The notes under the pieces: generated by a model | Told to the model about the DNA's origin: nothing | The model's database searches: none | The model's input: the letters and a program-made list of their open reading frames with translations, nothing else | Assembly: GCF_019343495.1 (NCBI RefSeq) | Contig: NZ_CP072549.1 | Coordinates: 2,852,001 to 2,916,000, forward strand | DNA length: 64,000 nt | From: Acinetobacter lwoffii | GTDB lineage: Bacteria; Pseudomonadota; Gammaproteobacteria; Pseudomonadales; Moraxellaceae | Reading direction: 5' to 3' | Made by a program: the position numbers and the translations under genes | Part shown: piece by piece, positions 1,324 to 60,843 of the stretch | Layout: the number at the start of each line of letters is the position of its first letter | Position numbering within the stretch: the stretch's first letter is position 1

Positions 1324-1608
1324 TTAAAAATCCATCCGAAACTTGATTTCGACCAAATGAAAACCAAACTGGCTTTTGACCGGACCATGTAATACACGTT
1401 CAGCGGCAGTAAATACCAATTTATCAATCACTGGAACCAGCTGGCCTTTCTTCACTTCACCTAGCTCACCGCCACGTTTGGCAGAATTACAGGTTGAATA
1501 TTGTTTGGCGATTTTATTGAAGTCGGCGCCACTTAAAATCTTCTTTTTAAGCTGTTCAGCAGTTTCTTTATCTTTAACCAGAATATGACGCACAATGGCT
1601 GTTTTCAT
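1324..1608 (-). CDS. ppiC: Parvulin-type peptidyl-prolyl cis-trans isomerase (PpiC-like)
   Basis: A 94-residue single-domain parvulin that isomerises peptidyl-prolyl bonds, probably cytosolic since there is no signal peptide. Family marks are 'VRHILVKDKETAEQLKKKI' at the N-terminus, 'FNKIAKQYSTCNSAKRGGEL', 'GELGEVKKGQLVP' and the closing 'QFGFHLVEI'. The start was set at the ATG with GAGGG seven bases upstream; a longer in-frame reading would run back into mutM. The ATG overlaps the mutM stop codon (ATGA), so it is probably translationally coupled to mutM in a two-gene operon. Length matches E. coli PpiC (about 93). Confidence 0.93.
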   Translation of the reverse strand: MKTAIVRHILVKDKETAEQLKKKILSGADFNKIAKQYSTCNSAKRGGELGEVKKGQLVPVIDKLVFTAAERVLHGPVKSQFGFHLVEIKFRMDF

Positions 1609-2465
1609 GACTTTTTCCCTCGTACAGTTGCCACTTTTTTGACAGGGAGCTGGATCTTTTTCAAAGGTTGGCATTCAGGACAAAAAACAGAAGCCCGTTG
1701 TCCCAATTTGATATTTTCAAGCGTGGTCTCGCAGTTCACGCACATCTCACCGGCACGGCCATAAGCCAACAGGGTTTGCTGAAAATAGCCATTTTCGCCC
1801 ATGGCATTGGTGTAGTCTCTTAAGGTTGAACCACCCAGATCAATTGCCTGTTTCAAGATACGCTTGATTTCCAGTACTAGCTTTTCAATCTGCACCAAGC
1901 TTAAAGTCGAGGCCGGTTGTGCCGGATGAATCCCCAGATTAAACAGACTTTCGGTCGCATAAATATTGCCTACGCCCACCACCACATGATTATCCATAAT
2001 TGCAACTTTGGTGCCAACATTTTTATTCTTCAATTTTTCAAATAAATACTCGGCATTAAAGTTCTCGCTTAAGGGTTCTGGCCCCAGCGTGTCAATCAAT
2101 TTGCTTTGTGATTGTGCATCCAGCCAAAGAATGCAACCAAAACGGCGAGGGTCATGATAACGCAGTTCGATATCATCAAACTGAATGATCAGATGATCAT
2201 GTTTACGTAATTCTTCATTGCCATCGCATAGACGGAAACTCCCCGACATGCCTAAATGCCAGAGCATGGTGTCGTGTTCAAACTCCGCCAGAATATATTT
2301 AGAACGGCGAGTGAGCTTCAGTAATTTTTGCCCCACCAGCTTTTCTATATTCTCCGGAATAGGCCAGCGCAAACTTGACTGACGTACTTCAACACGTTTT
2401 ACGCGTTGCTCTAATAAAGGCAATAAACTGGTTTTGGTGGTTTCAACTTCTGGTAATTCAGGCAT
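1605..2465 (-). CDS. mutM: Formamidopyrimidine-DNA glycosylase (Fpg/MutM)
   Basis: A 286-residue bifunctional DNA glycosylase/AP lyase of base-excision repair that removes 8-oxoguanine and formamidopyrimidines. The N-terminus MPELPEVETT supplies the catalytic Pro2 and Glu3; 'RRSKYILAEF' contains the conserved Lys region; 'HDPRRFG' is the canonical Arg loop. The C-terminal zinc finger is CVNC...CPEC (about residues 243-265) with the 'QRAS' strand. A basic tail of about 20 residues follows the zinc finger, making it slightly longer than the usual 270. It is followed by and overlaps ppiC. Confidence 0.97.
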   Translation of the reverse strand: MPELPEVETTKTSLLPLLEQRVKRVEVRQSSLRWPIPENIEKLVGQKLLKLTRRSKYILAEFEHDTMLWHLGMSGSFRLCDGNEELRKHDHLIIQFDDIELRYHDPRRFGCILWLDAQSQSKLIDTLGPEPLSENFNAEYLFEKLKNKNVGTKVAIMDNHVVVGVGNIYATESLFNLGIHPAQPASTLSLVQIEKLVLEIKRILKQAIDLGGSTLRDYTNAMGENGYFQQTLLAYGRAGEMCVNCETTLENIKLGQRASVFCPECQPLKKIQLPVKKVATVRGKKS

Positions 2466-2864
2466 AACACATCAGTGGCGAGGGAGATGCAGCTAATATT
2501 GGGTGAATTGGCCGGGATTGCAAGCGTTAATCTGGGCGAAATCGCTGGAAAATGACTGGGTATTTCATATTTATTTAAGCTGTAATTGTTTAAAGAATAA
2601 ACTAGGTTTCTATTTTTTTATAACAAATTTTCTTGGGAGTAAATCGAATAGAAAATATCAATAAATTATAAGTTAATGAAAAATATATAAATAATTTGAA
2701 ATTGTTAAAATAAAAATTATATTTTTATGTTTAAGGCATAACTAAAAGTTTAATGAGTAATAAAAAAAATGCTGAGAATTTATATGAAAAGTTATGTAAA
2801 TTCATGCACCTAATAGCAATTTAAAAACCTTGCTTATTTTTCTCTCCGAATGTTTAGGTTTTAC
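2466..2864. other. Intergenic region upstream of the OprB-type porin
   Basis: About 400 bases between the divergent mutM and porin genes. The first 100 bases have ordinary base composition, the rest is very AT-rich with many A and T runs. It presumably holds both promoters, but I could not assign a convincing -35/-10 pair. No ORF or RNA gene was recognised. Confidence 0.5.
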
Positions 2865-4133
2865 ATGAAATATTTAGGTCTAGCTCTATTGCCTTTAATG
2901 GCTGCCATGACAACCGCTCAGGCGGAATCTGCATTTGATCCACAAGGTCAATATTTACTGGGTGACTGGAATGGTCAACGTACAGAACTGGCCCAACAGG
3001 GAATTAAATTTGAAGCTAATCTGTTAACCGATACCGCCTATCTTGCTGATGGTGGTCGTAATGAGGGCGCAGATCCATTAACTTCTGCCCAATTATGGCT
3101 AGGTACTCAACTGGACATGGAAAAGCTGGCAGGATGGAATGGCGTCACCGTACGTGCCGTGATGAGTGCACGTCAGGGTCAAAGTACCTCTGTCCGTGAC
3201 TTGCAGGATCCTAGTGCACCGCAACTGGCCAATGTACAAGGTACTTTCGGACGTGGTAATCAGGATAGCCGTCTGAGCGAGCTGTCTATTGAAAAGAATT
3301 ATAAAGAGCAGGGACTCAGTATTAAGGCGGGTCGTCTTGGTCTGGGCATGGACTTTAATGTCATGGCTTGTGATTTTGCCAGTACTGCATTTTGTGCAGC
3401 GCAAATGGGAAAATGGCAGGGCAATATCTGGATGAATACGCCTGTAGCACAATGGGGTGCGCGCGTGAAGCAGCAACTCAATCCTGAACTTGCCGTACAA
3501 GTCGGTGTGTATGAGTTTAATCCGGATAATGGTAATGGCGCTAAAGAAGGTCAAGGCTGGAGTCTGGATACCGACCATGCAGATGGCGTGACAATTCCAG
3601 CAGAAGTAATCTGGACACCGAAATCATTAGTGAATGGCCTGCCAGGCAGCTACCGGGTTGGCGGGATGTACAATACGGCCGATGATGTTGCCAACCAAAA
3701 GGATATTGCCAATCCTACTGATGCCAAAAACCGTACCTTTGCCGGCTGGTTAGCTGTAGAGCAACAGTTAACGTCTACAGGTCAGGGCCGTCAGGGTTTG
3801 CATTCATTTGCCAACTTTACCTGGCATGACCGCGATACCAATAAAGTGGATAATTCACAACAAATCGGTTTGAAATATATCGGTCTTGCGGACAGTCAAC
3901 CGAACGACATTTTAGGTCTGGCGGTCAACCGTGTGCATGTGAATGATCGCTTTGCTGATTCACGGCCAGCTTTCAATGCTGATGCAGAATACAATATTGA
4001 ACTGAACTATAGCTATAACACAACAAAGTGGCTGATGCTGCGTCCAAACCTGCAATATGTCATTAATCCAGGTTCAAGCAACAATGTGGATGATGCACTG
4101 GTACTTGGTTTGACTACACGAATCATCTTCTAA
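2865..4133 (+). CDS. OprB-family carbohydrate-selective porin (paralogue 1)
   Basis: A 422-residue outer-membrane beta-barrel of the OprB family (PF04966), which forms channels for sugars. The signal peptide is MKYLGLALLPLMAAMTTAQA, cut before ESAF. The mature N-terminus carries the family signature 'LLGDWNGQRTELAQQGI', and the chain ends in 'TTRIIF' with the terminal Phe typical of outer-membrane barrels. The start is the ATG that directly opens the signal peptide; another in-frame ATG lies five codons upstream but has no ribosome site. A second paralogue lies at 30631-31890 beside glucose dehydrogenase. This copy stands alone, so its substrate is unknown. Confidence 0.9.
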   Translation: MKYLGLALLPLMAAMTTAQAESAFDPQGQYLLGDWNGQRTELAQQGIKFEANLLTDTAYLADGGRNEGADPLTSAQLWLGTQLDMEKLAGWNGVTVRAVMSARQGQSTSVRDLQDPSAPQLANVQGTFGRGNQDSRLSELSIEKNYKEQGLSIKAGRLGLGMDFNVMACDFASTAFCAAQMGKWQGNIWMNTPVAQWGARVKQQLNPELAVQVGVYEFNPDNGNGAKEGQGWSLDTDHADGVTIPAEVIWTPKSLVNGLPGSYRVGGMYNTADDVANQKDIANPTDAKNRTFAGWLAVEQQLTSTGQGRQGLHSFANFTWHDRDTNKVDNSQQIGLKYIGLADSQPNDILGLAVNRVHVNDRFADSRPAFNADAEYNIELNYSYNTTKWLMLRPNLQYVINPGSSNNVDDALVLGLTTRIIF

Positions 4134-4158
4134 AGTTTGATCGTTCACGTTATAACTA

Positions 4159-4184
4159 AACAGGCTCTTGGGAGCCTGTTTTTA
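4159..4184 (+). terminator. Rho-independent terminator of the porin gene
   Basis: The stem AACAGGCTC / GAGCCTGTT with a TTGG loop is followed by TTTTATTT. Confidence 0.9.
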
Positions 4185-4225
4185 TTTCTAGAGTGAAACT
4201 GTGCAATAAAAAGAGGAAATACAGC

Positions 4226-5335
4226 GTGGCATTACTATTTCAACCTATTCAATTTGGATCACTGCAACTTCAAAATAAAATCGTAATTGCGCCGATGTGT
4301 CAGTACTCTGCAACAGAGCAGGGGGAAATTACCTATTGGCACGAGCAGCAATGGGCCAACTATGCCTTATCGGGTGCAGGTTTATGTATCGTCGAAGCGA
4401 CTGCGGTACAGCCAGAAGGCCGGATTAGTTATGCCGATCTGGGCTTGTGGAATAACGAACAGGCAAAGCAGATCAAGACCTTACTGGAAAAAGTCAAATC
4501 CATTTCCCCGATGCCTTTTGCGATTCAACTCGCACATGCAGGGCGTAAAGCTTCAACAGATAAACCATGGGCAGGTAAAGGTCAGTTTAAGCCGGATGAA
4601 GCACATGGCTGGCAAACTGTTTCTGCCAGTGATATTCCTTTTCAGGCCGATGAACATCCACCCAAAGCCTTAAGCCAGTCGGAAATTGAGCAGGTCATTG
4701 CTGACTTTGCAGAAAGTGCCAAACGTGCAGTTGATGCCGGTTTTGACCTGATTGAGCTGCATGCAGCGCATGGTTATTTACTGCATCAGTTCATGTCACC
4801 ACTTTCAAATAAACGTGATGATCAGTATGGCGGTTCACTGGAAAACCGGATTCGCCTGACTCTGGAAGTATTACAAGCCATGAAAGCGGCGGTTCCAGAA
4901 GGTTATCCAATTGGAGTGCGTATTTCAGCCAGCGACTGGATGGATCAGCCAGACAGCTGGACCATTGATTCTTCAGTTGAATTGTCTAAAGCACTAGAAG
5001 CTGCGGGTGCTGCCTATATTCATATCTCCAGTGCCGGGCTGCATGTCAAACAGAACATTGATGTGAAGCCGAATTATCAGGTACCTTTTGCAGATGCGAT
5101 CAAGAAAGTCGTGAATATTCCCGTGATTGCCGTGGGATTGATTACTGAAGCTAAGCAGGCAGAAGATATTTTACAAAAGGGCCAAGCCGACGCTATCGCA
5201 CTGGCTCGTGCCATTCTTTATGATCCACATTGGCCTTGGCATGCAGCGGCAGCACTTGATGAAAAAATCAAGATTTCACCGCAATATCTGCGCTGCGCAC
5301 CGCATGGTTTGAATCACCTGTTTGAGCCTTTTTAA
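4226..5335 (+). CDS. NADH:flavin oxidoreductase, Old Yellow Enzyme family (YqjM/NamA-like)
   Basis: A 369-residue FMN-dependent TIM-barrel ene-reductase that reduces activated C=C bonds with NAD(P)H. 'IAPMCQYSA' gives Cys25 and Tyr27, the pair that marks the YqjM (class III) subgroup. 'IELHAAHGYLLHQFMSP' provides the His179/His182 pair that binds substrate oxygen, followed by 'SNKRDDQYGGSLENRIRL'. The start is GTG with AGAGG nine bases upstream; the earlier in-frame ATG lies next to the preceding terminator. The natural substrate cannot be told from sequence. The AEC transporter gene follows after 60 bases and may be cotranscribed. Confidence 0.92.
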   Translation: MALLFQPIQFGSLQLQNKIVIAPMCQYSATEQGEITYWHEQQWANYALSGAGLCIVEATAVQPEGRISYADLGLWNNEQAKQIKTLLEKVKSISPMPFAIQLAHAGRKASTDKPWAGKGQFKPDEAHGWQTVSASDIPFQADEHPPKALSQSEIEQVIADFAESAKRAVDAGFDLIELHAAHGYLLHQFMSPLSNKRDDQYGGSLENRIRLTLEVLQAMKAAVPEGYPIGVRISASDWMDQPDSWTIDSSVELSKALEAAGAAYIHISSAGLHVKQNIDVKPNYQVPFADAIKKVVNIPVIAVGLITEAKQAEDILQKGQADAIALARAILYDPHWPWHAAAALDEKIKISPQYLRCAPHGLNHLFEPF

Positions 5336-5395
5336 CACTGCTTTAGTCTCAGAAATTCTTATAATGGAATATCACTGACAAGAGGATACTGCATT

Positions 5396-6322
5396 ATGAT
5401 TTTTGCGGTCATTGTGCCCATATTTTTATTATTGGCACTGGGTTATCTGACTGTAAAGAGTCAAGTGTTAAGCAAAGAGCAGGTTGGGACGGTCGGTGCT
5501 TTTGTCATTAAAGTGGCCTTGCCCTTGCTGTTCTTTCAGTCCCTTGCCTCCAAAGACCTGCATGAAATCTGGTATTTTGAATACTTTGCCGTGTACAGCA
5601 GTGTGACCTTGCTGCTCTATGGTAGCGGCTTCTGGATTATGCGCCGTCATTTTCAGAATACGCATTCGCAAAGTGCAGTGCTGTCGTTGGGCGCTGCAAT
5701 GTCAAATACTGGCCTGATTGGTACGGCTGTGCTCAGCTTATTGATCGGGCAACAGGCGATGACCTATACCTCTCTGGTGGTCATCATTGAAAGCGTGTTG
5801 CTGATTCCGCTGGTGCTGGTCATGGCTGCGCTGGGCACACAACATCAGGCAAATCTTGGCGCCATTTTGAAAAGTGTACTGCTGACCTTGCTGAAGAATC
5901 CCTTATTTATGGGGGTCATGCTCGGCATGGCCTGTGCGGTTTTCCAGATTAAAATTCCAGTCTATCTCGATCAGGTCTTCGCCTTGATTGGTCAGACGGC
6001 CTCACCATTGGCCTTGTTTGCCATTGGCGGCGGGATCGTAGGAATGAGTCTGAAATATGTCAATCTGCAAAGTTTCTATCTGGTATTTTCCAGCAATATC
6101 ATGATGCCGTTATTGATGTATCTGGGACTGAGCCAGTTAACTGATTTAAGTCAGGAAATGGTCCATGCTGGTACGCTCATTGCAGCTTTGCCGATGCCGA
6201 CGATTTTTGGCATGTTGGGACAGGCGTATGGTCTGAATGATCGAACTTTAACGCCATTGTTGATGAGTACCATTGCCGGTTTTATCGTGACCAGTGGCTT
6301 AATTGCCTTGTGGTGGGGATAA
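5396..6322 (+). CDS. AEC (auxin efflux carrier) family transporter
   Basis: A 308-residue inner-membrane permease of the AEC/PIN-like family (PF03547), with about ten hydrophobic helices. Characteristic features are the N-terminal 'IFAVIVPIFLLLALGYL', the mid-chain 'AMSNTGLIGTAVLSLL' helix with its conserved Asn-Thr-Gly, 'NPLFMGVMLGM' and the last repeat 'AALPMPTIFGMLGQAYG'. Bacterial members include malonate and malate transporters, but this sequence alone does not tell the substrate. A good AGAGG ribosome site precedes the ATG. It lies directly downstream of the OYE gene and ends at a bidirectional terminator. Confidence 0.92.
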   Translation: MIFAVIVPIFLLLALGYLTVKSQVLSKEQVGTVGAFVIKVALPLLFFQSLASKDLHEIWYFEYFAVYSSVTLLLYGSGFWIMRRHFQNTHSQSAVLSLGAAMSNTGLIGTAVLSLLIGQQAMTYTSLVVIIESVLLIPLVLVMAALGTQHQANLGAILKSVLLTLLKNPLFMGVMLGMACAVFQIKIPVYLDQVFALIGQTASPLALFAIGGGIVGMSLKYVNLQSFYLVFSSNIMMPLLMYLGLSQLTDLSQEMVHAGTLIAALPMPTIFGMLGQAYGLNDRTLTPLLMSTIAGFIVTSGLIALWWG

Positions 6323-30167: not shown

Positions 30168-30630
30168 GCTTGTTCTCGTCTATTAAGCTAGATTATTGTT
30201 TTAAAGCGACGCAATTTCTTATCAGAATAACTTTAGCATAATCTAATTTTTAAAAGTTTATGGTGAAATGACAATAATTTTTTCATGTTTTTAAAAGCCT
30301 TATCGCAATAGTGATTCAGTATTCAATCAACAAAAAATGTAGCGTTGCATGATTTGAAATGAAGAAAATTAAATAGTAATGGAGCTGATTTATCTCTGAA
30401 TCTTTTATAAGAAATTAAAGCTAAATCTATCTGATGAATATCAAATTTTTCTTTGGAACTATGGTTTGATGTTGTTAAATTTAATATGATGATAAACAGA
30501 TACTTATAAATTTTAAATTTACAAAAAGCATATAATAATACTAATAAATATAACATTTTATTCATACTTTTTATCTATTAGTAACGATTTTTAAAATCAA
30601 CAGGCGTATAATAAAAAGCTTCATATTGTG
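30168..30630. other. AT-rich intergenic region upstream of the glucose porin
   Basis: About 460 bases between divergent genes, strongly AT-rich. An 80-residue reading frame on the minus strand (30323-30565) has no ribosome site or family resemblance. No operator was identified. Confidence 0.5.
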
Positions 30631-31890
30631 ATGAAGGTATCACATTCAATGTATCTCTCCCCATTATCGAAGGCCGTTTACCTTTGCTGTGCCTCTTTCA
30701 TCTTAACCACGACCACTGTGCATGCTGAAGCTGCTTTCAGTTCGGAAAGCCCGTGGATGCTCGGTGACTGGAACGGGCAACGTACAGCACTCCAAAATCA
30801 GGGCTATGATTTCAGTTTTGGTTATACCGGTGAAATGGCAACCTTGATCGATGCGCTAAGATCTTCAAACCATAAAACTGAATATGCGGACCAGTTTGTT
30901 TTTGGGGCACATCTGGATCTGGCAAAAATTGCAGGCTGGCAAGACACCGAAGCACAAATAACAGTGACCCAGCGTAACGGTCAGTCACTGTCTCAAAGCG
31001 CTGCTGCTTTAAATGGCCATCTGAGTTCAGTGCAAGAAGTCTGGGGCCGTGGTCAAACCTGGCGCCTGACTGATTTATGGATCAAGAAAAAATTCCTGGA
31101 ACAAAAACTGGATGTGAAAGTCGGACGCTTTGGTGAGGGTGAAGACTTCAATAGTTTTGACTGTGATTTCCAGAATCTGGCCCTATGCGGTTCACAAGTC
31201 GGGAACTGGGTTGGCGATCAGTGGTACAACTGGCCGGTAAGCCAATGGGCTGCACGGGTCAAATATAACCTTAACCCTGAATTTTATGCCCAAGTCGGTG
31301 CTTATGAATACAACCCTGAGAATCTGGAACGTGGTAAAGGATTTAACCTGAGTACGGATGGTTCCAAAGGGGCAATGCTTCCTGCAGAAGTGGTTTGGGC
31401 ACCTAAACTGGGTGAACAGAAACTACCGGGTGAATACCGTGCCGGTTATTACTACAGTACAGCAGAGGCTGAAGTCATTTCCAATCCAGATCAAACCGAT
31501 CATCACCATGGGGGCTGGATTGTTGCCAAGCAACAATTGACTGCACATCACGGAGATACTTCGCGTGGTTTGACCGGCTTTGTGAATGCGACAGTGCATG
31601 ACTCCAAAACCAATAATGTCAGTGATATGCAAAATATCGGGCTGGTTTATAAGGGTGCAATGGATTCACGCCCTCAAGATGAAATCGCATTTGGTATTGC
31701 ACGCATCAACATGAATGACGATGTCAGTGCTGACCGTCATCAAGAAATCGATGCAGAAATTTATTATGGCTTACATGCCACTAATTGGCTCACCATTCGC
31801 CCGAATGTGCAATATGTGCGTCACATCGGTGCATATAAAGATGGTGAAAATGTCTGGGTGGGCGGAATCAAGTTTAATACGTCATTTTAA
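30631..31890 (+). CDS. oprB: OprB-family carbohydrate porin (paralogue 2, glucose module)
   Basis: A 419-residue outer-membrane porin with a signal peptide of about 33 residues ending in 'TTTTVHA' before EAAF. The mature N-terminus 'PWMLGDWNGQRTALQNQGYDF' carries the OprB signature (21 residues, core LGDWNGQRTAL), and the chain closes in 'GGIKFNTSF' with a terminal Phe. It precedes gcd by about 170 bases in the same direction, without a terminator between, so it probably supplies glucose and other aldoses to the periplasm for Gcd. The start may also be ATG 30649 (AAGG 11 bases upstream). Confidence 0.92.
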   Translation: MKVSHSMYLSPLSKAVYLCCASFILTTTTVHAEAAFSSESPWMLGDWNGQRTALQNQGYDFSFGYTGEMATLIDALRSSNHKTEYADQFVFGAHLDLAKIAGWQDTEAQITVTQRNGQSLSQSAAALNGHLSSVQEVWGRGQTWRLTDLWIKKKFLEQKLDVKVGRFGEGEDFNSFDCDFQNLALCGSQVGNWVGDQWYNWPVSQWAARVKYNLNPEFYAQVGAYEYNPENLERGKGFNLSTDGSKGAMLPAEVVWAPKLGEQKLPGEYRAGYYYSTAEAEVISNPDQTDHHHGGWIVAKQQLTAHHGDTSRGLTGFVNATVHDSKTNNVSDMQNIGLVYKGAMDSRPQDEIAFGIARINMNDDVSADRHQEIDAEIYYGLHATNWLTIRPNVQYVRHIGAYKDGENVWVGGIKFNTSF

Positions 31891-32060
31891 AATATAGTTT
31901 TTAGTTGCAAATACACTATTGAATCTCTAGGTGCTTTGTTGCAGTAATGGGCAATGCCTGCTTAAGACATTGATGTATTTATAACTCAGAATTTAACAAT
32001 AAGGGTGCTCATGCCTGTCATGTGCATGGACTTTCAAAAAAACTTTTATAGGTGTTCAAT

Positions 32061-34463
32061 ATGAATACTTCATCATCAGGTTCAGTACTGAAAACGATTT
32101 TAGCGGTCATTGCCGCTGTTTTCGGTATAGGACTGCTGATTGGAGGGATTTATCTTGCAGTGCTGGGTGGGTCTTGGTACTACATCATTGCAGGTATTCT
32201 CTTTATTGCGACCGCAGTTCTCTTGTATAAACGAAAAAGCGCTGCACTTCTGGTTTATGCCATATTCGTTTTGGCAACAGTGGTGTGGGGCCTATGGGAA
32301 GTCGGTTCAGATTTCTTTGCACTTGCGCCGCGTTTGGATATTTTAGGTCTGTTTGGTTTAGCGCTGCTTATTCCGGCGGTAACACGTGGCTTTGATCAAA
32401 GCAAAGGTGCGAAAATTGCCTTGGGTGCTTCATTGGCCATTACTATTGCCGTCATGATTTATGCTGTATTTAATGACCCGCAAGAAATTCGCGGTGAATT
32501 AAAATCCCAGCAGCCCGCAACCCACCAGCCAATTCCCGGTGTGGCAGATGAAGACTGGCCAGCTTATGGCCGTACCCAGTCCGGTTTGCGTTATTCACCC
32601 TTAAAGCAGATTAATACTGAAAACGTCAAAGATTTGCAGGTGGCTTGGGAATATCACACGGGCGAATTCAAGACTGAAAATGACTCGGGTGAAACCACCA
32701 ATCAGGTTACTCCAATCAAGGTGGGTGACAACATGTACATCTGTACCACTCACCAGAAATTGACTGCGCTTGATCCAGCAACTGGTAAGGCGAAATGGAC
32801 TTATGATCCAAAACTGAAAGCCGATCATACCTATCAGCATTTAACCTGCCGTGGTGTATCTTATTATGATGTCAACAATACGGCTGGTTTTGAAAGCAGT
32901 CTCGCTGCGAAGAAAACCACATCGGCTGAATGTCCGCAAAAAGTCATTTTACCGGTCAATGATGGGCGTCTGGTTGCGGTAAATGCAACCACCGGTAAAG
33001 TCTGTTCTGACTTTGGTAAAAATGGTGAAGTTGATCTGCAAAAAGATATGCCATTCCCATATCCGGGTGGTTATATTCCAACCTCACCGCCTGTAGTAAC
33101 CGGCACCACCATTATTATTGCGGGTTCAACCACAGATAACTATTCAACTGAAGAACCGTCGGGTGTGATCCGTGGTTATGATGTCAATACCGGTGAACTG
33201 CTTTGGGTATTTGACACAGGCGCTGAAGATCCGAATTTGATTCCTGCACCGGGTCAAAAATTTGTACATAACTCTCCAAATGCTTGGGCACCTTTGGCCT
33301 ATGATGCAGAGCTGGATATCGTCTACGTACCAACGGGTGTCGGTACACCGGATATTTACGGTGGTCATCGTACTGAACTGGACGAGCGTTATGCCAACTC
33401 GATGCTGGCCTTGAATGCGACGACCGGCAAACTGGTATGGAACTTCCAGACTACCCATCACGATTTGTGGGATATGGACGTACCTTCACAGCCAACATTG
33501 ACCGAGATTAAAGACAAAAACGGCAATATGGTTCCAGCCATTTATGTCTTGACCAAAACGGGTAATGCTTTTGTGCTAGACCGCCGTAATGGTAAAGCGA
33601 TTGTGCCAATTACCGAGAAACCGGTACCACAATCTGTGAAACGCGGACCTCAGACCAAAGGCGAGTTCTATTCTAAAACTCAACCTTTCTCTGACTTTAA
33701 TCTGGCGCCACAAGATAAATTGACCGATAAACAGATGTGGGGTGCGACCATGTTTGACCAGTTGGTCTGCCGTGTTGCTTTCCACAAACTGAATTACGAT
33801 GGCATTTATACCCCACCTTCTGAAAATGGGACGCTGGTCTTCCCGGGTAACCTAGGTGTGTTTGAATGGGGTGGTATGTCGGTGAATCCGGACCGTCAAA
33901 TTGCATTAACCAACCCGATTGGCCTGCCATTTGTATCAAAACTGATTCCTCAAGATCCGAACCGTCCTAAGACGGCTAAAGGTGCAGGTACAGAAGCCGG
34001 CGTTCAACCGATGTATGGTGTGCCTTATGGCGTTGAAATCAGTGCGTTCCTGTCTCCATTCGGTCTACCGTGTAAACAGCCATCATGGGGCTTTGTTGCA
34101 GGTGTGGACTTAAATACTCATGAAGTGGCCTGGAAACGCCGTATCGGTACCATTCGTGACAGTATGCCGGGCATTCCATTGCCGCCATTCAAAATGGGTG
34201 TGCCGATGTTGGGTGGTCCTATTTCAACTGCGGGCAACGTGATGTTTGTGGGCGGAACTCAAGATAACTACATTCGCGCCATCAATGTGAACAACGGTGA
34301 TGAGTTGTGGAAAGGCCGTCTACCTGCAGGTGGTCAGGCTACACCAATGACCTATGAAGCCAATGGCAAGCAGTATGTGGTCATTATGGCAGGTGGTCAT
34401 GGTTCCTTTGGGACTAAAATGGGCGACTCTCTGGTGGCTTATGCCTTGCCAGACAATAAATAG
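32061..34463 (+). CDS. gcd: Membrane-bound PQQ-dependent glucose dehydrogenase (quinoprotein)
   Basis: An 800-residue mGDH that oxidises glucose to gluconolactone in the periplasm and feeds electrons to ubiquinone. Residues 10-140 hold five transmembrane helices; the rest is an eight-bladed PQQ propeller. Marks are 'DWPAYGRTQSGLRYSPLKQI', 'LQVAWEYHTGEF', the repeated 'G-x-x-W' blade strands, 'DLWDMDVPSQPTL', 'NPIGLPFVSKLIPQDPN' and the closing 'YVVIMAGGHGSFGTKMGDSL'. The start is ATG with AGGTG six bases upstream. The porin upstream and PQQ receptor downstream form a coherent group. No pqq biosynthesis genes are in the window. Confidence 0.97.
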   Translation: MNTSSSGSVLKTILAVIAAVFGIGLLIGGIYLAVLGGSWYYIIAGILFIATAVLLYKRKSAALLVYAIFVLATVVWGLWEVGSDFFALAPRLDILGLFGLALLIPAVTRGFDQSKGAKIALGASLAITIAVMIYAVFNDPQEIRGELKSQQPATHQPIPGVADEDWPAYGRTQSGLRYSPLKQINTENVKDLQVAWEYHTGEFKTENDSGETTNQVTPIKVGDNMYICTTHQKLTALDPATGKAKWTYDPKLKADHTYQHLTCRGVSYYDVNNTAGFESSLAAKKTTSAECPQKVILPVNDGRLVAVNATTGKVCSDFGKNGEVDLQKDMPFPYPGGYIPTSPPVVTGTTIIIAGSTTDNYSTEEPSGVIRGYDVNTGELLWVFDTGAEDPNLIPAPGQKFVHNSPNAWAPLAYDAELDIVYVPTGVGTPDIYGGHRTELDERYANSMLALNATTGKLVWNFQTTHHDLWDMDVPSQPTLTEIKDKNGNMVPAIYVLTKTGNAFVLDRRNGKAIVPITEKPVPQSVKRGPQTKGEFYSKTQPFSDFNLAPQDKLTDKQMWGATMFDQLVCRVAFHKLNYDGIYTPPSENGTLVFPGNLGVFEWGGMSVNPDRQIALTNPIGLPFVSKLIPQDPNRPKTAKGAGTEAGVQPMYGVPYGVEISAFLSPFGLPCKQPSWGFVAGVDLNTHEVAWKRRIGTIRDSMPGIPLPPFKMGVPMLGGPISTAGNVMFVGGTQDNYIRAINVNNGDELWKGRLPAGGQATPMTYEANGKQYVVIMAGGHGSFGTKMGDSLVAYALPDNK

Positions 34464-34488
34464 TTAAATTTTTAAATCAGTATGAAGG

Positions 34489-34512
34489 AGCCTGATTCGT
34501 CAGGCTTTTTTA
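34489..34512 (+). terminator. Terminator of gcd
   Basis: The stem AGCCTGA / TCAGGCT with a TTCG tetraloop is followed by TTTTTTA. It separates gcd from the receptor gene, which therefore needs its own promoter. Confidence 0.92.
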
Positions 34513-34855
34513 TTATGTATTGTTGAATGCCTACATCCAGTTTTAAGGACACAGAGAAATGATGTTGATTTGTTGCTGAAAGCTCAATTTCATTCAGATC
34601 GCATTAAAATAATATGCTTTGTATATGGCTGATTTTAAGCGAAATTCAGATAAAGGATTAATTAAGTCTAAATTTATCGAACACAGAATTTTTAAGCTCA
34701 AAATATTCCTATTCATTGAGCGAACTATATGTCATCGAATTAGCATACTTATTTGGTATCGATGCTTAAAACAAAATGAGTTGAATCATGAGATGTACGC
34801 CATCTCGATAAGGTATTTGCCGCATTAAACCACTTTCAAATAAGGCCTGTCATTT
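34513..34855. other. Intergenic region upstream of the PQQ receptor gene
   Basis: About 340 bases, AT-rich, with a spurious 69-residue reading frame. It should hold the promoter of the receptor gene. I looked for a Fur box and saw none that was convincing. Confidence 0.5.
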
Positions 34856-37021
34856 ATGTACCAAAGCCCGAAATTTCCATTCGTGAGATCGACCTTGTCC
34901 TGCCTGATTGCTTGCGCAGGTCAGAACATTTATGCAGAAAATGATACACAAGAAGTCCAAAGGTTAGACACGATTGTCATTCAAGCGACCCGTACAGATC
35001 GGGAGCGATTGACCACACCGGCGTCAGTGTATTATCTGAATCAAGAACAAGATAACAGCATGAATGTGAATCTTTCGGAAACATTAAAAGGCATTCCGGG
35101 ATTACAGTTAAACAATCGTGAAAACTATGCCCAAGACCTACAAATTTCGATGCGAGGCTTTGGGGCACGTTCCAGTTTTGGTGTGCGTGGTGTGCGTTTA
35201 TATGTAGATGGAATCCCTGCAACAATGCCGGATGGACAGGGGCAAACCTCGAATATTGACTTGAATAGTCTGGACCATATTGAAGTATTGGGTGGTGGAT
35301 TTTCATCACTGTATGGCAACTCTTCCGGAGGAACGATTTTAACCACCACAAGGGAAGGGCAAGGCGCTGACTCAATTGAACTGGGGCATTCTGCAGGGAG
35401 CCAGAACAAAGGGCAGACCAAGCTGGTTTTGCAAGGCGGTTCAGAGAATGCTTCAGAGCCAAGCTATGTCATTAGCTCCTCTTATTTTGATACCAATGGT
35501 TACCGTGACCACAGCAGTGCACATAAAGTTCTGCATAATGCCAAGCTGACTTGGGATCTGGAAGATGGTTCTAAAATCAACTGGATGAATAACTACGTTA
35601 AAATTGCAGCGGATGATCCGGGCGGTTTAACCCGAGAACAGTGGAAGGTCAATCCCCGACAGGTCGCGACCAACGTCCTTCTTTATAATGCACGTAAAGA
35701 AATTGAGCAGTTGCAAACAGGTTTGACCTGGAATAAACCGATCAATGACCAGCATGACCTGTATGGCATGGCCTACTGGGGACAGCGCGCAGTCACGCAA
35801 TATCAGTCGATTCCAAAGTGTGCATATGAAGAAAATACTGATATTTGTAAACCTAATACAGTTCAACTAGCCCGAAATCATCCCGGTGGTGTCATTGATT
35901 TTGACCGTAATTTTTATGGGACAGATTTACGCTGGACGGGTAAAGATATTCTACCAAATACTAAACTGATTGCAGGTGTCGCCGTAGATGCCATGACCGA
36001 AGACCGTAAAGGCTATCAAAACTTTTTAGGTGATCGCTTGGGAGTCAAAGGCGAACTGCGTCGAGATGAAGATAATACCCTGTGGAATTTAGATCCGTAT
36101 TTGCAAGCTTCTTATCATTTTGCTCCCGATTGGACTTTAGATGCCGGCCTGCGCTATAGCAATGTACATTTCAAGTCTAAAGACAAGTTTCTGGCGAATG
36201 GCAATAATTCGGGTAAAACCGATTATCAGAAATTACTGCCTTCAGCTGCGTTAAGCTGGCAGATTTTTCCTGAGCTGATGACTTATGCCAGTTATGCACA
36301 AGGCTTTGAAACGCCCACCTTTACCGAAATGTCTTATCCAGCAGATGGCAGTAGTCGCACACTTGATCTAAAAGCAGCAGAAAGTAGAACTTATGAGATG
36401 GGATTGAAATCTGCAAATACATTAGGTGATTTTACTGTTGCAGTTTTCCAGACCAAGACGAAGAATGACATTGTTTCTGCAGGTAATGACAATGGTCGCT
36501 CTACTTTCCGTAATGCCGATAAAACTTTAAGAGAAGGTATTGAACTCTCCTGGAATAAAAACCTATGGTGTGACCTAATTGCACAGGCCAGCTATAGCTA
36601 TATAGATGCAACTTTTGATGCAGATATTCCTGAAATTTTAAATCAGAATGGCAGTATTGCAGTGTCGAGAGTTGAATCAGGAAACTATATTCCGGGGATT
36701 GCCAAAAATCAGGCATTTTTAAGTTTAGGCTGGAAACCTGAAAATGGTTTGAGTGCGGGTTTAGACGTGCGTTACTCAGATCGTATTTATGTCAATGATA
36801 CCAATACTGAATATGCGCCAAGCTACACAGTCGCTGGTGCAAACGTTGGTTATAACTGGAATGTGAAAGACTGGTCTGTAAAAACTTTTGCACGCTTAGA
36901 TAACCTGTTTGATAAAGATTATTCTGGTTCGGTGATTGTCAATGAAAGTAATAGCCGTTTCTTTGAGCCGGCAGAAGGACGGAACTGGAGCGCTGGTCTG
37001 AGTGTGACAAAAGAATTTTAA
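34856..37021 (+). CDS. pqqU: TonB-dependent outer-membrane receptor, PqqU/YncD-like (PQQ uptake)
   Basis: A 721-residue TonB-dependent receptor. The signal peptide ends near 'GQNIYA'; a TonB-box-like 'DTIVIQATR' follows; the plug (about 45-170) contains 'LNNRENYAQDLQISMRGFGA' and 'YVDGIPATMPDGQGQTSN'; the barrel has 'ADDPGGLTREQWKVNP', 'ENRKGY'-like 'EDRKGYQNFLGD', and 'DNLFDKDYSGSVIVNESN' and ends in Phe. These segments are nearly the same as those I recall from E. coli YncD/PqqU, identified as the receptor for pyrroloquinoline quinone. Its position directly after gcd supports PQQ as the ligand. AAGG is 11 bases upstream of the ATG. Confidence 0.87.
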   Translation: MYQSPKFPFVRSTLSCLIACAGQNIYAENDTQEVQRLDTIVIQATRTDRERLTTPASVYYLNQEQDNSMNVNLSETLKGIPGLQLNNRENYAQDLQISMRGFGARSSFGVRGVRLYVDGIPATMPDGQGQTSNIDLNSLDHIEVLGGGFSSLYGNSSGGTILTTTREGQGADSIELGHSAGSQNKGQTKLVLQGGSENASEPSYVISSSYFDTNGYRDHSSAHKVLHNAKLTWDLEDGSKINWMNNYVKIAADDPGGLTREQWKVNPRQVATNVLLYNARKEIEQLQTGLTWNKPINDQHDLYGMAYWGQRAVTQYQSIPKCAYEENTDICKPNTVQLARNHPGGVIDFDRNFYGTDLRWTGKDILPNTKLIAGVAVDAMTEDRKGYQNFLGDRLGVKGELRRDEDNTLWNLDPYLQASYHFAPDWTLDAGLRYSNVHFKSKDKFLANGNNSGKTDYQKLLPSAALSWQIFPELMTYASYAQGFETPTFTEMSYPADGSSRTLDLKAAESRTYEMGLKSANTLGDFTVAVFQTKTKNDIVSAGNDNGRSTFRNADKTLREGIELSWNKNLWCDLIAQASYSYIDATFDADIPEILNQNGSIAVSRVESGNYIPGIAKNQAFLSLGWKPENGLSAGLDVRYSDRIYVNDTNTEYAPSYTVAGANVGYNWNVKDWSVKTFARLDNLFDKDYSGSVIVNESNSRFFEPAEGRNWSAGLSVTKEF

Positions 37022-47824: not shown

Positions 47825-48505
47825 ATGAAATATACATTAACCCGTGCGAATCCGAATGCTGACCAATATCCACTTCAGGAACGTATTGTTGTAGAAGATC
47901 CGTTGCTAGAAGAAGAAGTGAATAAAAATGTATTCATGACTCGCTTAGAGGATGTGGTACATACAGCAGTCAACTGGGGTCGTAAAAACTCAGTTTGGCC
48001 ATTTAACTTTGGTACATCTTGCTGCTACGTAGAATATGCAACGACCTTGACCGGCGTGCATGACTTGTCACGTTTTGGTGCCGAGGTTATCCGTGCTTCA
48101 CCGCGTCAGGCGGACTTAATGATTGTAGCGGGTACTTGCTTCGTAAAAATGGCGCCAGTAATTCAGCGTCTGTACGAACAGATGCTTGAACCAAAATGGG
48201 TCATTTCAATGGGTGCATGTGCCAACTCAGGTGGTATGTACGATATTTATTCAGTCGTACAAGGTGTGGATAAAATCATCCCGGTCGATGTGTATATTCC
48301 AGGTTGCCCACCACGTCCTGAAGCTTTGATTCAGGCATTGATGCTGTTGCAAGACCAGATTCAACTAGAGCGTCGTCCGCTTTCTGCGGTGATCGGTGAT
48401 GATCTTAAGCCAGTGTATAAGCCAAAGATGATGCCGGAACGTGACCGTAAGAAAGACCAGCGTGTTGCTGTGAAGAACTTACGCTCTATGGATGAAATTA
48501 AATAA
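47825..48505 (+). CDS. nuoB: NADH-quinone oxidoreductase subunit B
   Basis: A 226-residue subunit that holds cluster N2, the last Fe-S centre before quinone. Ligands are Cys66 and Cys67 ([10 protein letters not shown]), the Cys of '[15 protein letters not shown]' and the Cys of '[13 protein letters not shown]'. It starts six bases after nuoA. The C-terminal tail is basic. A 91-base gap with a hairpin separates it from nuoC/D, unusual within this tightly packed operon. Confidence 0.97.
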
Positions 48506-48508
48506 TTT

Positions 48509-48558
48509 AAACGACAGGTTGTTTTGTTGTGCACCCGCTATGGGTGTAATTGTCGTTT
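48509..48558 (+). other. Hairpin in the nuoB-nuoC/D gap
   Basis: An outer stem AAACGACA / TGTCGTTT encloses an inner stem CACCC-GCTAT-GGGTG. There is no T run. It may be a processing or stabilising element inside the nuo mRNA. Confidence 0.55.
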
Positions 48559-48596
48559 AGGTTGACTGAATTTGTATTAAATAGGAAGCCAAGCCA

Positions 48597-50384
48597 ATGG
48601 CTGAAACTGACATTGCTATGCCAGAATCAACGCCTGTTGATTCACGCCCAGCATTTGCCATCATTGAAGAACTCAAAACCAAATTTGGTGAGAACTTCTT
48701 TGTGCAAACGACTTTCGAGGATTTCCCGACAGTCTGGGTTGAGCGCGCACGTGTACAAGAAGTTTTAATGTTCTTGCGTACAGTGTCACGTCCTTACGTG
48801 ATGTTGTTCGACCTGTCAGCGGTAGATGAGCGTCTGCGTACGCACCGCGACGGTTTACCTGCGTCTGACTTCACCGTGTTCTATCACCTGTTGTCGCTCG
48901 AGCGTAATACTGACATTCGTATTAAAGTTGCCTTAGCTGAAAGCGATTTGAATCTTCCAACGGCAACCAATATTTGGCCAAATGCCAACTGGTACGAACG
49001 TGAAGCTTACGATATGTTCGGGATCAATTTCGAAGGGCATCCAATGCTCCGTCGTATCTTGTTGCCAACCTATTGGGAAGGTCATCCGCTACGTAAAGAA
49101 TATTCTGCGCGTGCGACTGAATATACGCCGTATTTGCAAGATAAAGCCAAACAGGACTACGAACAGGAACATCTTCGTTTCGTCCCTGAAGATTGGGGTA
49201 TGAAGCGCGGCAATGCCGATGAAGACTTCATGTTCCTGAACTTGGGTCCGAACCATCCATCTGCGCACGGTGCGTTCCGTGTGATCTTGCAGCTGGACGG
49301 TGAAGAAGTGAAAGACTGTGTGCCTGACATCGGTTATCACCACCGTGGTGTGGAAAAGATGGCTGAACGTCAAACCTGGCATTCATTCATTCCGTATACA
49401 GACCGTGTCGACTACCTCGGTGGTTGTGCGCAAAACATGCCTTACGTGCTTGGCGTAGAGCAAATGGCGGGTATTACTGTACCTGACCGTGCGCAATGTA
49501 TCCGCGTGATGATGTCTGAACTGTTCCGTATCAATAACCACTTGCTGTTCATTGGTACTGCGATTCAGGATGCCGGCGGTATGACGCCAGTCTTCTACAT
49601 GTTCGCCGATCGTCAGAAAATCTATGACGCGATTGAAGCGATCACCGGTTACCGTATGCATCCGGCATGGTTCCGTATCGGTGGTACCGCACATGACCTT
49701 CCAAATAACTGGCAGCACCTGATCCGTGAAATCCTGGATTGGATGCCGAAACGTTTGAAGGAATACCATACTGCAGCGCTAAAAAACTCGGTGTTTGTGG
49801 GTCGTACCCGTAATGTTGCGCAATACGATGCAAAATCTGCATTGGCTTGGGGTGTAACAGGTACAGGTCTGCGTGCTACAGGTATTGACTTTGACGTACG
49901 TAAATACCGCCCATATAGCGGTTATGAAAATTACGACTTCGAAGTGCCAGTGGAGTACGAAGGCGATGCCTATGCACGTGTCATCGTTCACTACCGTGAA
50001 ATTGAAGAATCACTGAAAATTATCAAACAATGTTTAGATAATATGCCGTCTGGTGCGTATAAAGCAGACCATCCACTGGCTGTTCCACCACCAAAAGACA
50101 AGACATTACAAGATATTGAAACCTTGATTACGCACTTCCTGAGTGTATCTTGGGGTCCTGTAATGCCGGCGGGTGAAGCATCTGTGATGGCGGAAGTGGT
50201 GAAAGGCGCGTCGAACTACTACTTGACTTCAGACAAGTCAACCATGAGTTACCGTACCCGTATTCGTACACCAACCTTCACGCATTTACAGCAAATGCCT
50301 TCTGTGATTAACGGCAGCTTAATGTCTGACTTAATCATTTATTTAGCGACCATTGACGTCGTAATGGCTGACGTGGATCGCTAA
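48597..50384 (+). CDS. nuoC: NADH-quinone oxidoreductase fused subunit C/D
   Basis: A 595-residue fusion. Residues 1-185 are NuoC (30-kDa type), with '[18 protein letters not shown]' and 'HPLRKEY' as its signature. Residues 205-595 are NuoD (49-kDa), with '[16 protein letters not shown]', '[14 protein letters not shown]', 'RINNHLLF' and the C-terminal '[19 protein letters not shown]'; these line the quinone pocket. The fusion is normal for gammaproteobacteria. AGGA precedes the ATG. Confidence 0.97.
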
Positions 50385-50398
50385 GGGGTAAACGCATT

Positions 50399-50908
50399 AT
50401 GATGATTTTGACTGATAAAAAGCCACGTGTGAATGTTGAAGGAATTTTGACTGCGGACGAAATTCACGATATCGAACATCACATGGGGCACTACCCATAC
50501 CCACGTGCAGCGTGTCTAGATGCGCTGAAGTGTGTACAACGCCGTAATGGCTGGGTAGATGATGCGCAAATGAATGCCATCGCACAAATGCTGAGCATGA
50601 GCGTTGCAGACCTTGAAGGTGTGGCAACGTTCTATAACCGTATTTACCGTCAGCCGGTCGGTCGTCACGTAATTTTATTATGTGATTCGATTGCGTGTTT
50701 CTTGATGGGTGCGGAAACTTTGGCAGAAGCATTCCAGCGCGAATTAGGAATCCAGTTTGGTCAAACGACTGCAGATGGTCGTTTCACTTTGCTGCCAATT
50801 TGCTGTCTGGGCAACTGTGACAAAGGTCCAACCTTAATGATTGATGAAGACACGCACGGTCTGGTTGAAGTGACTTCGGTGAAACAGCTGTTGGAGAAGT
50901 ATGTATGA
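50399..50908 (+). CDS. nuoE: NADH-quinone oxidoreductase subunit E
   Basis: A 169-residue subunit with the [2Fe-2S] cluster N1a. Ligands are in '[12 protein letters not shown]' (Cys-x4-Cys) and '[10 protein letters not shown]' (Cys-x3-Cys), the thioredoxin-like pattern of the 24-kDa family. AGGGG precedes two adjacent ATG codons; either could start. The stop overlaps the nuoF start by four bases (ATGA), indicating translational coupling with its partner in the NADH dehydrogenase module. Confidence 0.96.
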
Positions 50909-52236
50909 ATACTGAACCAAAACCAATTTATGGCGACGGTAACCCGGAAACGCATCCATTAACATGGCGTTTAAGCAAACAAGCCAACGTACGTAATGCA
51001 GATGATTACGAAGCGCTGGAAGGTTATGCAGGCTTTAAAAAAGCACTGAGCATGTCGCCTAAAGATGTATTGGAAGTGGTTAAAGCAGCGACTGTTAAAG
51101 GTCGTGGTGGTGCAGGCTTCCCGGCAGGCATTAAATGGTCTTTGATGGCGCCAAACGACAACTCAGGTCCACGTTACCTGATTTGTAATGCCGATGAGAT
51201 GGAACCAGGTACCTTTAAAGACCGTTTGTTGATGGAAGATCTTCCGCATCAATTGATCGAAGGGATGCTGATTGCGGGTTATACGCTTGAAGCAACACAC
51301 GGTTATATCTTTATCCGTGGCGAGTACATTGAAGCTGCTCAGTACTTAAATGAAGCACTTGAGCAAGTTCGTGCCAAAGGTTACTTAGGGGATAACATCC
51401 TTGGTACAGGCTGGAACTTCGAGTTACACGTGCATACCGGTGCGGGTCGTTATATCTGCGGTGAAGAAACTGCATTGATTAACTCGCTAGAAGGTCGCCG
51501 TGCCAACCCGCGTACTAAACCGCCATTCCCGCAAGTTGCAGGTGCTTGGGGTCGTCCTACGATTGTCAACAACGTAGAGACCTACAACAACTTACCAGCC
51601 ATCATGCTGCGTGGTCCTGAATGGTATATCAACTTGTCTGCGGGTAAGTCGAAAGATCCAGGCACCAAGATTTATGGTGCATCAGGTAAGGTAAAATTCC
51701 CGGGTCTATGGGAGCTTCCATTTGGTACGACAGCACGTGAAGTGATTGAAGACCATGCGGGTGGTATGCGTGACGGCTTAAAACTGAAAGCATGGTTACC
51801 GGGTGGTGCATCGACTGACTTCCTGGCTGCCGAGCATATTGATCTTCCTATGGATGCGGAAAGCATCATGAAAGCAGGTTCGCGTTTAGGGACTTGTTTG
51901 TTGATGGTGGTAGATGAAACCCAATGTATGGTTTCAGCGACACGTAACCTCGAAGAATTCTTTGCACGCGAATCATGTGGTTTCTGTACGCCTTGCCGTG
52001 ATGGCTTACCTTGGGCTGTGAAAGCGCTGAAAGCACTGGAAGATGGCACAGGTAAGAAAGAAGATATCGATCACTTACAAGAACTGACTCGTAAGCTTTG
52101 GATTGGTAAAACTTTCTGTGCCCACGCACCGGGTGCAATGGAGCCGCTTATGGGCGCACTCAAATATTTCCGTGGCGAATTTGAAGCGAAGGTTGTGAAT
52201 GCCGCCGCTCAAACCAGCAACGTAGAACAAGCTTAA
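50905..52236 (+). CDS. nuoF: NADH-quinone oxidoreductase subunit F
   Basis: A 443-residue subunit that binds NADH, FMN and cluster N3. The Gly-rich '[14 protein letters not shown]' binds FMN/NADH, '[15 protein letters not shown]' and '[14 protein letters not shown]' are conserved, and N3 ligands are in '[12 protein letters not shown]' (three Cys) and '[12 protein letters not shown]' (fourth Cys). It accepts the hydride from NADH, the entry point of the complex. Confidence 0.97.
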
Positions 52237-52247
52237 GGAATTCGACT

Positions 52248-54926: not shown

Positions 54927-54929
54927 TTC

Positions 54930-55946
54930 ATGGAACAAGAATTAATCCGTCAAACGCCGCTGTGGGCTGAAAACTGGCCAATTGCCTATTCAGTCATTCA
55001 AGCGATTGTGATCTTGCTGGTTGTAGTACTGATCGCTGCGTTGATGTCTTTTATTGAACGTCGTTTACTCGGCTTGTGGCAAGACCGTTACGGTCCGAAC
55101 CGTGTTGGTCCGGGCGGTATGTTCCAGATTGTTGCCGACATGCTGAAAATCATGTTCAAGGAAGACTGGACACCAAAATTTGCTGACAAATTGACGTTCC
55201 GTATGGCGCCAGCAGTTGCGATGGCAACTGCGGTGCTATCGTTCATGGTTATTCCTGTATCACCTTATTTAGGTGTAGCAGACATGAACATCGGCCTGTT
55301 GTTCTTTATGGCAATGGCGGGTATTGCAGTTTATGCAGTCCTGTTCGGTGGCTGGTCATCAAACAACAAATATGCCTTACTGGGCGGTTTACGTTCTGCA
55401 GCTCAAACCATTTCGTATGAAGTGTTCTTGGGTATCTCGTTGATGGGTGTGGTGGCAATTGCCGGTTCATTCAACATGCGTGAAATCGTTGAAGCGCAAA
55501 AAGATGTCTGGTTTGTTATTCCTCAGTTCCTAGGTTTCCTGATCTTCGTGGTTGCGGGTGTTGCGGTAACGCATCGTCACCCATTTGACCAACCAGAAGC
55601 AGAACAAGAACTGGCAGAAGGTTACCATGTCGAATACGGCGGTATGAAGTGGGGGATGTTCTTCGTTGCGGAATACGTCAACGTGGTACTGATCTCTGCA
55701 TTGATCGTGACGTTATTCTTCGGTGGCTGGCTTGCGCCATTCAACCTTGATATTCCGTTCCTTCCAGCAGCATTCTGGTTCATTATCAAAACAGCATTCT
55801 TTGTAATGATGTTTGTACTGGCGCGTGGTTCATTAATGCGTCCACGTTATGACCAGGTGATGAACTTTGGTTGGAAAATTTGCTTGCCATTGGCGTTGGT
55901 TAACCTTTTGGTAACTGGTGCTGTGATTCTGATGAATCAGGCCTAA
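54930..55946 (+). CDS. nuoH: NADH-quinone oxidoreductase subunit H
   Basis: A 338-residue membrane subunit (ND1-like) with about eight helices; it joins the membrane arm to the quinone site. '[27 protein letters not shown]' (part: [16 protein letters not shown]) and '[20 protein letters not shown]' (part: [19 protein letters not shown]) are diagnostic and contain the charged residues linked to quinone chemistry. It starts three bases after nuoG, whose end contains its ribosome site. Confidence 0.97.
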
Positions 55947-55964
55947 GACAGCAGGGAGAACAAA

Positions 55965-59225: not shown

Positions 59226-59226
59226 A

Positions 59227-60840: not shown

Positions 60841-60843
60841 GCC

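Follow-up and report, generated by a model that had tools for sequence, protein, structure and literature searches.

A PqqU-type receptor gene beside the glucose dehydrogenase gene gcd in Acinetobacter lwoffii, a probable neighbourhood for PQQ import and use

Porin, dehydrogenase and receptor genes

The window analysed here, a stretch of 64,000 nucleotides of Acinetobacter lwoffii (contig NZ_CP072549.1, positions 2,852,001 to 2,916,000), contains three successive plus-strand open reading frames (ORFs), spanning 30628-37021, which encode an OprB-family porin, the membrane-bound glucose dehydrogenase Gcd, dependent on pyrroloquinoline quinone (PQQ), and a TonB-dependent outer-membrane receptor similar to PqqU of Escherichia coli. 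The genome, from the lwoffii group of Acinetobacter, comprises 3.53 Mb in six contigs and is rated 100% complete. An earlier reading of the same DNA (the original prediction) had described three consecutive plus-strand genes, and this was confirmed by the ORF list together with Pfam and NCBIfam matches; its starting position, 30631, is the codon after 30628, and the start codon of the porin is either GTG at 30628 or ATG at 30631.

The receptor gene is intact, and its Pfam content consists of the Plug domain and the TonB_dep_Rec barrel. When aligned with E. coli PqqU, 306 of 656 residues are identical (47%). A search of the PDB retrieved the E. coli YncD/PqqU structures 6v81 and 9c4o (E ~1e-172, 580 bits), while the next-best receptor reached only 62 bits, about 520 bits lower; among NCBIfam families, PqqU (NF041535) was by far the best, with 751.6 bits. 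The stretch resembling E. coli YncD/PqqU that had been quoted earlier was found again: YVDGIPATMPDGQGQTSN occurs in the receptor and is identical in E. coli PqqU. Taken as a whole, these matches are far beyond chance. Identity as a siderophore receptor was rejected on the PDB and NCBIfam scores, and the grouping with siderophore receptors that would have spoken against the original prediction was not seen, judging by score and by the residue signature described below, the receptor tree having been built without siderophore receptors. In named A. lwoffii records the receptor is present at 82-95% identity.

The PqqU signature was described as an aromatic residue at position 99 with arginines at 304 and 365, phenylalanine being accepted at position 99 (Munder et al., 2025; PMC12124388). 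The window receptor has F108, R311 and R384 at the places of E. coli Y99, R304 and R365, and it also keeps the important but less conserved K274 and R536, as K281 and R548. Ten PQQ-site positions, whose numbering was verified in full-length PqqU of E. coli K-12, were compared, and eight are identical (K281, R311, R384, Q93, Q315, Q317, Y494 and R548); the remaining two are changed from Y99 to F and from N477 to T490. The F/R/R signature was found in all 88 Acinetobacter receptors examined (one per fetched locus, with 144 receptor-bearing genomes in the table), six of which have K in place of R536. Outside the genus one of six receptors (genome G314) fails the signature, with T at 304; these six come from the eight outside genomes with a receptor, less G294 and G339. 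The similarity scores and the binding-site residues thus support the assignment of the window receptor as a PqqU-type PQQ receptor.

The dehydrogenase matches the PQQ family of Pfam (PF01011, 757 bits) and exceeds the cut-off of TIGR03074 (1126 against 832.65 bits), covering profile positions 1-783 of 783, and it shares 61% identity with Gcd of E. coli. Residues H262, W404, D466, K493, N607 and H775 (E. coli numbering), which we take to form the active site, are all conserved, so that the six of six residues of a glucose-type site are present. A genome-wide search with PF01011 recovered, apart from Gcd, a single weaker match (18.3 bits; 39.6 bits with its frame neighbours), identified as BamB (TIGR03300, 358 bits, cut-off 285). 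Gcd is therefore the only PF01011 quinoprotein of the genome besides BamB, in a search that did not extend to the soluble glucose dehydrogenase family PF07995.

No match to PqqC, PqqD or PqqE was obtained in the genome by profile searches, which did not include pqqA, pqqB or pqqF. The PqqC and PqqE models do work, since both match the same 43 of 175 Acinetobacter genomes. The original prediction had made dependence on PQQ producers conditional on the absence of the pqq genes, and for pqqC, pqqD and pqqE this absence was found; with none of these three marks of a PQQ producer, the strain seems unable to make PQQ. As to the use of glucose, Edd gave no match in any of 12 genomes tested that carry the receptor behind gcd, and was present in three of eight PQQ-making genomes tested. 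Strain NL1 of A. lwoffii fails to grow on glucose (PMC11395192). Given this failure and the lack of an Edd match, the sugar is probably an electron donor and not a carbon source, and the likely benefit of its oxidation is energy rather than carbon.

The gcd gene and the receptor gene are separated by 392 nt (34464-34855), and a terminator-like hairpin lies at the beginning of this spacer. Its 20-nt core, AGCCTGATTCGTCAGGCTTT, is identical in all 12 aligned gcd-receptor spacers, including that of the window. Scanning for terminators was weak by itself, the region having five such sites and shuffled sequences 6.9 +/- 3.2, so it is the conservation that gives evidence for a terminator; promoter-like sites showed no excess (14 against 14.7 in shuffles). 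Because of the conserved terminator, gcd and the receptor gene are probably separate transcription units in the gcd-linked clade, and an operon of the two is unsupported. The "module" of the original prediction thus stands as a set of adjoining genes, its status as an operon being unproven.

Co-occurrence of receptor and PQQ dehydrogenase

Receptor matches (E <= 1e-80) were found in 145 of 175 Acinetobacter genomes and Gcd matches (E <= 1e-280) in 138, every one of which also has the receptor. Five receptor-bearing genomes without Gcd (G004, G026, G074, G087 and G101) encode a different dehydrogenase that exceeds the TIGR03074 cut-off, and G143 combines a gcd remnant with a weak receptor match (E 1e-85). 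All 30 receptor-less genomes were checked: 29 had no TIGR03074 protein over the cut-off, and one (G152, 64% complete) did. When receptor and membrane PQQ dehydrogenase are tabulated, both are present in 143 genomes, neither in 29, the receptor only in two (G138 and G143) and the enzyme only in one (n = 175). Five of the 138 Gcd genomes (G018, G020, G063, G089 and G109) have one stop in the matched Gcd stretch, as does the receptor of G020; all were counted as present.

This association persists when relatedness is allowed for. On an nrdA DNA tree of 80 of the 175 genomes (all 30 receptor-less ones and 50 picked for spread), the receptor differed within 14 independent pairs; on average the enzyme differed in the same sense in 13.4 of them, and in no pair in the opposite sense (p 1.2e-4). 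Under a stricter coding, with three incomplete genomes left out and G143 as receptor-bearing instead of receptor-absent, 11.7 of 13 pairs agreed (p 5e-4), and the NrdA protein tree gave 7.8 of eight (p 0.008); nrdA is a single gene that may itself have moved. Throughout the genus, receptor and enzyme are retained or lost as a pair. By the same test the receptor showed no significant trend with PQQ synthesis (3.0 pairs the same way, 0.4 the opposite way, of 14; p 0.375), and of the 143 genomes with both genes 42 have pqqC/E and 101 do not.

Short gcd remnants were observed beside an intact receptor at loci L126 (G138) and L065 (G004), and in two fetched stretches holding no receptor, L220 (G143) and L221 (G114). 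They look like enzyme loss in progress.

It might be asked whether the receptor is needed for PQQ to reach Gcd at all. The cofactor could diffuse through porins, including OprB, and the receptor would then matter just when PQQ is very scarce, or in retaining PQQ that has leaked out. In E. coli, PqqU was reported as dispensable at 100-3000 nM PQQ (PMC12124388), and 42 of the 43 PQQ-making Acinetobacter genomes have the receptor as well, the exception being the incomplete G152. By itself this explanation does not account for the shared pattern of presence and absence of receptor and enzyme, which holds also in genomes lacking pqq genes, and we consider it unlikely.

Gene order and history of the linkage

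The original prediction had noted a physical linkage of receptor and Gcd and called for a comparison of gene order in other Acinetobacter. The linkage is real and recurs: in 23 of the 175 genomes the receptor lies directly behind gcd, its match starting 216-406 nt past the gcd match, and no PqqC or PqqE match was found in any of these 23. In 67 other genomes the receptor lies 14-34 kb downstream of gcd on the same strand, and in the remaining receptor-bearing genomes it is farther away, otherwise arranged, on another contig or without Gcd. Two genomes with the receptor at a contig end (G071 and G135) were excluded from these counts.

The usual receptor locus in Acinetobacter, found for 43 of the 88 receptors examined, consists of mutM, often an oprB gene, the receptor gene, usually a gene for a flavin oxidoreductase of the old yellow enzyme (OYE) type, and a PF03547 transporter gene. 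Receptor and OYE genes are closely spaced, 9 nt apart in G016, 10 nt in G110 and 9-10 nt at L051 and L054. The window keeps this mutM-oprB-OYE locus (1605-6322) minus the receptor, with 59 nt between oprB and the OYE gene (Table 1), and its genome has a single receptor match. From these two facts the receptor gene either moved, or was lost there and gained behind gcd. The receptor was also seen with OprB and an OYE-type oxidoreductase at L051 (4613-7861), L054, L061, L070 and L077.

Table 1. Features of the window relevant to the receptor, with positions counted from its first letter
Feature	Position	Strand	Size or evidence
mutM, left-hand flanking gene of the usual Acinetobacter receptor locus	1605..2465	-	NF002211 325 bits, TIGR00577 292 bits; synteny
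Second OprB porin gene; directly upstream of the receptor in many congeners	2850..4133	+	PF04966 302 bits; synteny
Empty 59-nt spacer; holds the receptor gene in usual-locus congeners	4134..4192	+	ORF list, synteny
FMN oxidoreductase of the old yellow enzyme type (OYE); usually directly downstream of the receptor in congeners	4193..5335	+	PF00724 258 bits; synteny
PF03547 membrane transporter, next gene in the usual receptor locus	5396..6322	+	PF03547 101 bits; synteny
OprB-family carbohydrate-selective outer-membrane porin	30628..31890	+	420 aa; PF04966 358 bits
Membrane-bound PQQ-dependent glucose dehydrogenase Gcd/GdhA	32052..34463	+	803 aa; TIGR03074 1126 bits
Terminator-like intrinsic hairpin, just past the gcd stop codon	34482..34513	+	Scan and core conservation
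PqqU-like TonB-dependent outer-membrane receptor	34856..37021	+	721 aa; 47% identity to E. coli PqqU

Receptors linked to gcd fall into one clade (support 96), which also contains those of G071, G135, G138 and G074; in the last two genomes gcd is gone from that place. In a tree of 46 Gcd sequences, the Gcds of G046 and G086 join the 17 linked ones in a supported clade, and strict monophyly of the linked Gcds was weakly rejected (p 0.017). G086 (L052/L053) and G046 (L056/L057) are PQQ makers with the receptor at the usual locus, 63-65% identical to that of the window. The grouping of their Gcds with linked Gcds, together with receptors at the usual locus, points to replacement of the receptor or transfer of gcd; a single linking event followed by replacement would fit, and so would transfer of the block. 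Eight gcd-linked genomes present on the nrdA tree occupy three places (G000/G062/G083/G117/G156; G173/G099; G019), which suggests, without proving it, horizontal movement of the linkage.

A second kind of linkage was found in 13 genomes, whose receptors form one clade (SH-aLRT, a likelihood-ratio branch support, 98) and lie behind another dehydrogenase that shares about 37-39% identity with Gcd (L059, L060, L062, L068, L102-L104, L108, L109 and L129-L132). An OprB-type ORF precedes the dehydrogenase gene in all but one of the 13. The two dehydrogenases of this type that were tested (L131; G074) are TIGR03074 members over the cut-off. Those of L131 and L059 are without H262 and H775, from which their substrate is probably not glucose; the one at L073 is without H262 and N607. 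The spacers between dehydrogenase and receptor measure 14 (G107), 76 (G074), 59 (G159), 59 (G122) and 58 nt (G042). A similar arrangement, with a spacer of 147 nt, occurs in G026, whose receptor groups next to the gcd-linked clade. When all linked receptors (23, 13 and that of G026) were forced into one clade, the tree was rejected by the approximately unbiased (AU) test (p 4e-5); the second receptor-dehydrogenase linkage arose separately. A candidate third linkage, in G004 at L065, was rejected, its neighbour being only a gcd-like remnant. In this genome (94% complete, 7% contamination) two further receptor copies, which are not among the sequences of the tree, stand next to dehydrogenases.

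These histories bear on whether adjacency to gcd has a function. The receptor might import PQQ and yet owe its place to a single transplant by recombination that was then inherited. The terminator, which makes a separate transcription unit likely, and the 67 congeners whose receptor lies 14-34 kb from gcd agree with such an accident, and since all gcd-linked receptors are in one clade one event may suffice; on the other side stand the separate origin of the second linkage, with its spacers of 14-76 nt in five measured cases, and the spread of the gcd linkage over 23 genomes, with three places on the nrdA tree. We regard functionless adjacency as possible, though rather doubtful.

The notion that linkage arises where PQQ synthesis has been lost was also considered. 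Raw counts fit, as none of 38 linked rows (among them the G004 remnant, counted at that stage as linked) and 18 of 48 unlinked rows had pqq genes, but independent pairs were not significant. Outside the genus the receptor (E <= 1e-100) was found in eight of the other 368 genomes of a class sample, and in the stretches fetched from these eight no relative of the window Gcd (BLASTP E <= 1e-8) lay beside it. At L120, one of the outside loci, a dehydrogenase-like ORF of 27% identity lies about 5 kb from the receptor.

Proposed function and relation to known systems

We consider it probable, at roughly 80%, that the OprB, Gcd and receptor genes form a neighbourhood for the import and use of PQQ in a strain that does not make its own, the receptor gene having been relocated behind gcd. 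Glucose would cross the outer membrane through OprB, and PQQ released by other bacteria would, by homology with E. coli, be caught by the receptor and drawn into the periplasm with energy from TonB. There it would load apo-Gcd, and an inner-membrane transporter would not be needed because Gcd, as is established for this enzyme, faces the periplasm. Gcd would pass electrons from glucose to quinone and so into the respiratory chain, the gain being probably respiratory energy with gluconate as end product. Synteny suggests that the receptor gene now behind gcd moved from the usual mutM-oprB-receptor-OYE locus or replaced the copy there. Its retention would follow from the uselessness of Gcd, the only PF01011 quinoprotein dehydrogenase found, without imported PQQ, as the co-occurrence of the two suggests. 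The interpretation first given to these genes was mostly right: the PqqU signature, the absence of pqqC, pqqD and pqqE matches and the linkage in 23 genomes all support it.

Several observations weigh against PQQ import and use by this neighbourhood. The NF041535 score of the receptor lies below the curated equivalog cut-off of 1200 bits, a naming threshold, as do the 814 and 817 bits of the two further Acinetobacter receptors scanned. G138 has an intact receptor and only a gcd remnant. At the usual locus the receptor is accompanied by a flavin oxidoreductase, for which PQQ import does not account; linkage is not significantly associated with pqq absence once relatedness is allowed for; and the conserved terminator argues against simple co-transcription of gcd and receptor.

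The sub-threshold score and the OYE pairing would also agree with import of some other small anion or of a siderophore, the place behind gcd being accidental, and the substrate of a TonB receptor is considered hard to read from overall similarity (PMC12124388). Such a substrate is very improbable given that eight of ten PQQ-site positions match E. coli and Y99F is an accepted change, leaving N477T as the only departure, that the next-best PDB receptor scores so much worse, that another receptor clade became separately linked to a PQQ dehydrogenase, and that, in about 12-13 independent changes, the presence of the receptor goes with that of PQQ dehydrogenases.

PQQ import by E. coli PqqU is the closest known system. 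Both receptors are outer-membrane and TonB-dependent, with the sequence identity and shared PQQ-site residues given above, and E. coli likewise owns Gcd and cannot make PQQ. They differ at Y99 and N477, and in gene order: in E. coli K-12 pqqU (1520963-1523065) is far from gcd (138835-141225) and beside yncE, whereas the window receptor is directly behind gcd. At this E. coli locus (L139, 4964-8369) pqqU and yncE are divergently oriented, and yncE is annotated as encoding a PQQ-like-domain protein, a possible partner. PqqU was described as a widespread importer of PQQ, with synthesis genes in 23% of its carriers (PMC12124388).

In Acinetobacter, an OprB-gdhA two-gene cluster, with the same porin and membrane glucose dehydrogenase as in the window, was described as ubiquitous, and the pqq cluster as present at less than 20% outside the calcoaceticus-baumannii complex (PLoS Genet, 2022; PMC9162365). 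That account, as far as its available text goes, includes no PQQ receptor or import, whereas in the window the receptor is the third gene. The main text of PMC12124388 has the word Acinetobacter once, in a reference, and its synteny passage deals with the pqq operon, not with gcd. Within the portions available, PMC7193533 contains neither "Acinetobacter", "operon" nor "synten", PMC11658791 treats PqqU of E. coli only, PMC12997753 leaves PqqU unmentioned, and PMC13088180 mentions PQQ uptake in general terms. Neither the receptor-gcd linkage nor the genus-wide coupling of receptor and enzyme was found described in the titles and consulted texts of open-licence papers on PqqU, PQQ and Acinetobacter glucose dehydrogenase, which does not in itself prove novelty. 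PqqU and Gcd are individually known; the arrangement and the genus-wide coupling are the new element.

In Acinetobacter calcoaceticus var. lwoffi the glucose dehydrogenase was reportedly found by van Schie et al. in 1985 to be an apoenzyme activated by added PQQ; that strain would belong to the same species group as the window, with an enzyme apparently lacking cofactor synthesis. To our knowledge, no receptor gene was known at that time. Acid from glucose is an old trait for sorting Acinetobacter, and PQQ scavenging bears on it.

Many Acinetobacter species probably live on the PQQ of their neighbours; as cofactor scavengers they would offer a simple, testable cross-feeding system. For PqqU, the genus provides genomic evidence of its role beyond E. 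coli, as the receptor follows the PQQ enzyme, and not detectably PQQ synthesis, through those 12-13 changes. More tentatively, and with odds that we put a little short of even, PQQ may be mostly a public good in Acinetobacter, with a portable cassette of porin, quinoprotein and cofactor receptor assembled at least twice among scavengers (with Gcd and with the second dehydrogenase) and moving between species, receptor and enzyme being gained and lost as a pair and synthesis independently.

Elsewhere in the window, positions 47825-62388 hold the genes of Complex I (nuo), in which five of the ORFs tested match NADH-quinone oxidoreductase subunits; this part is ordinary.

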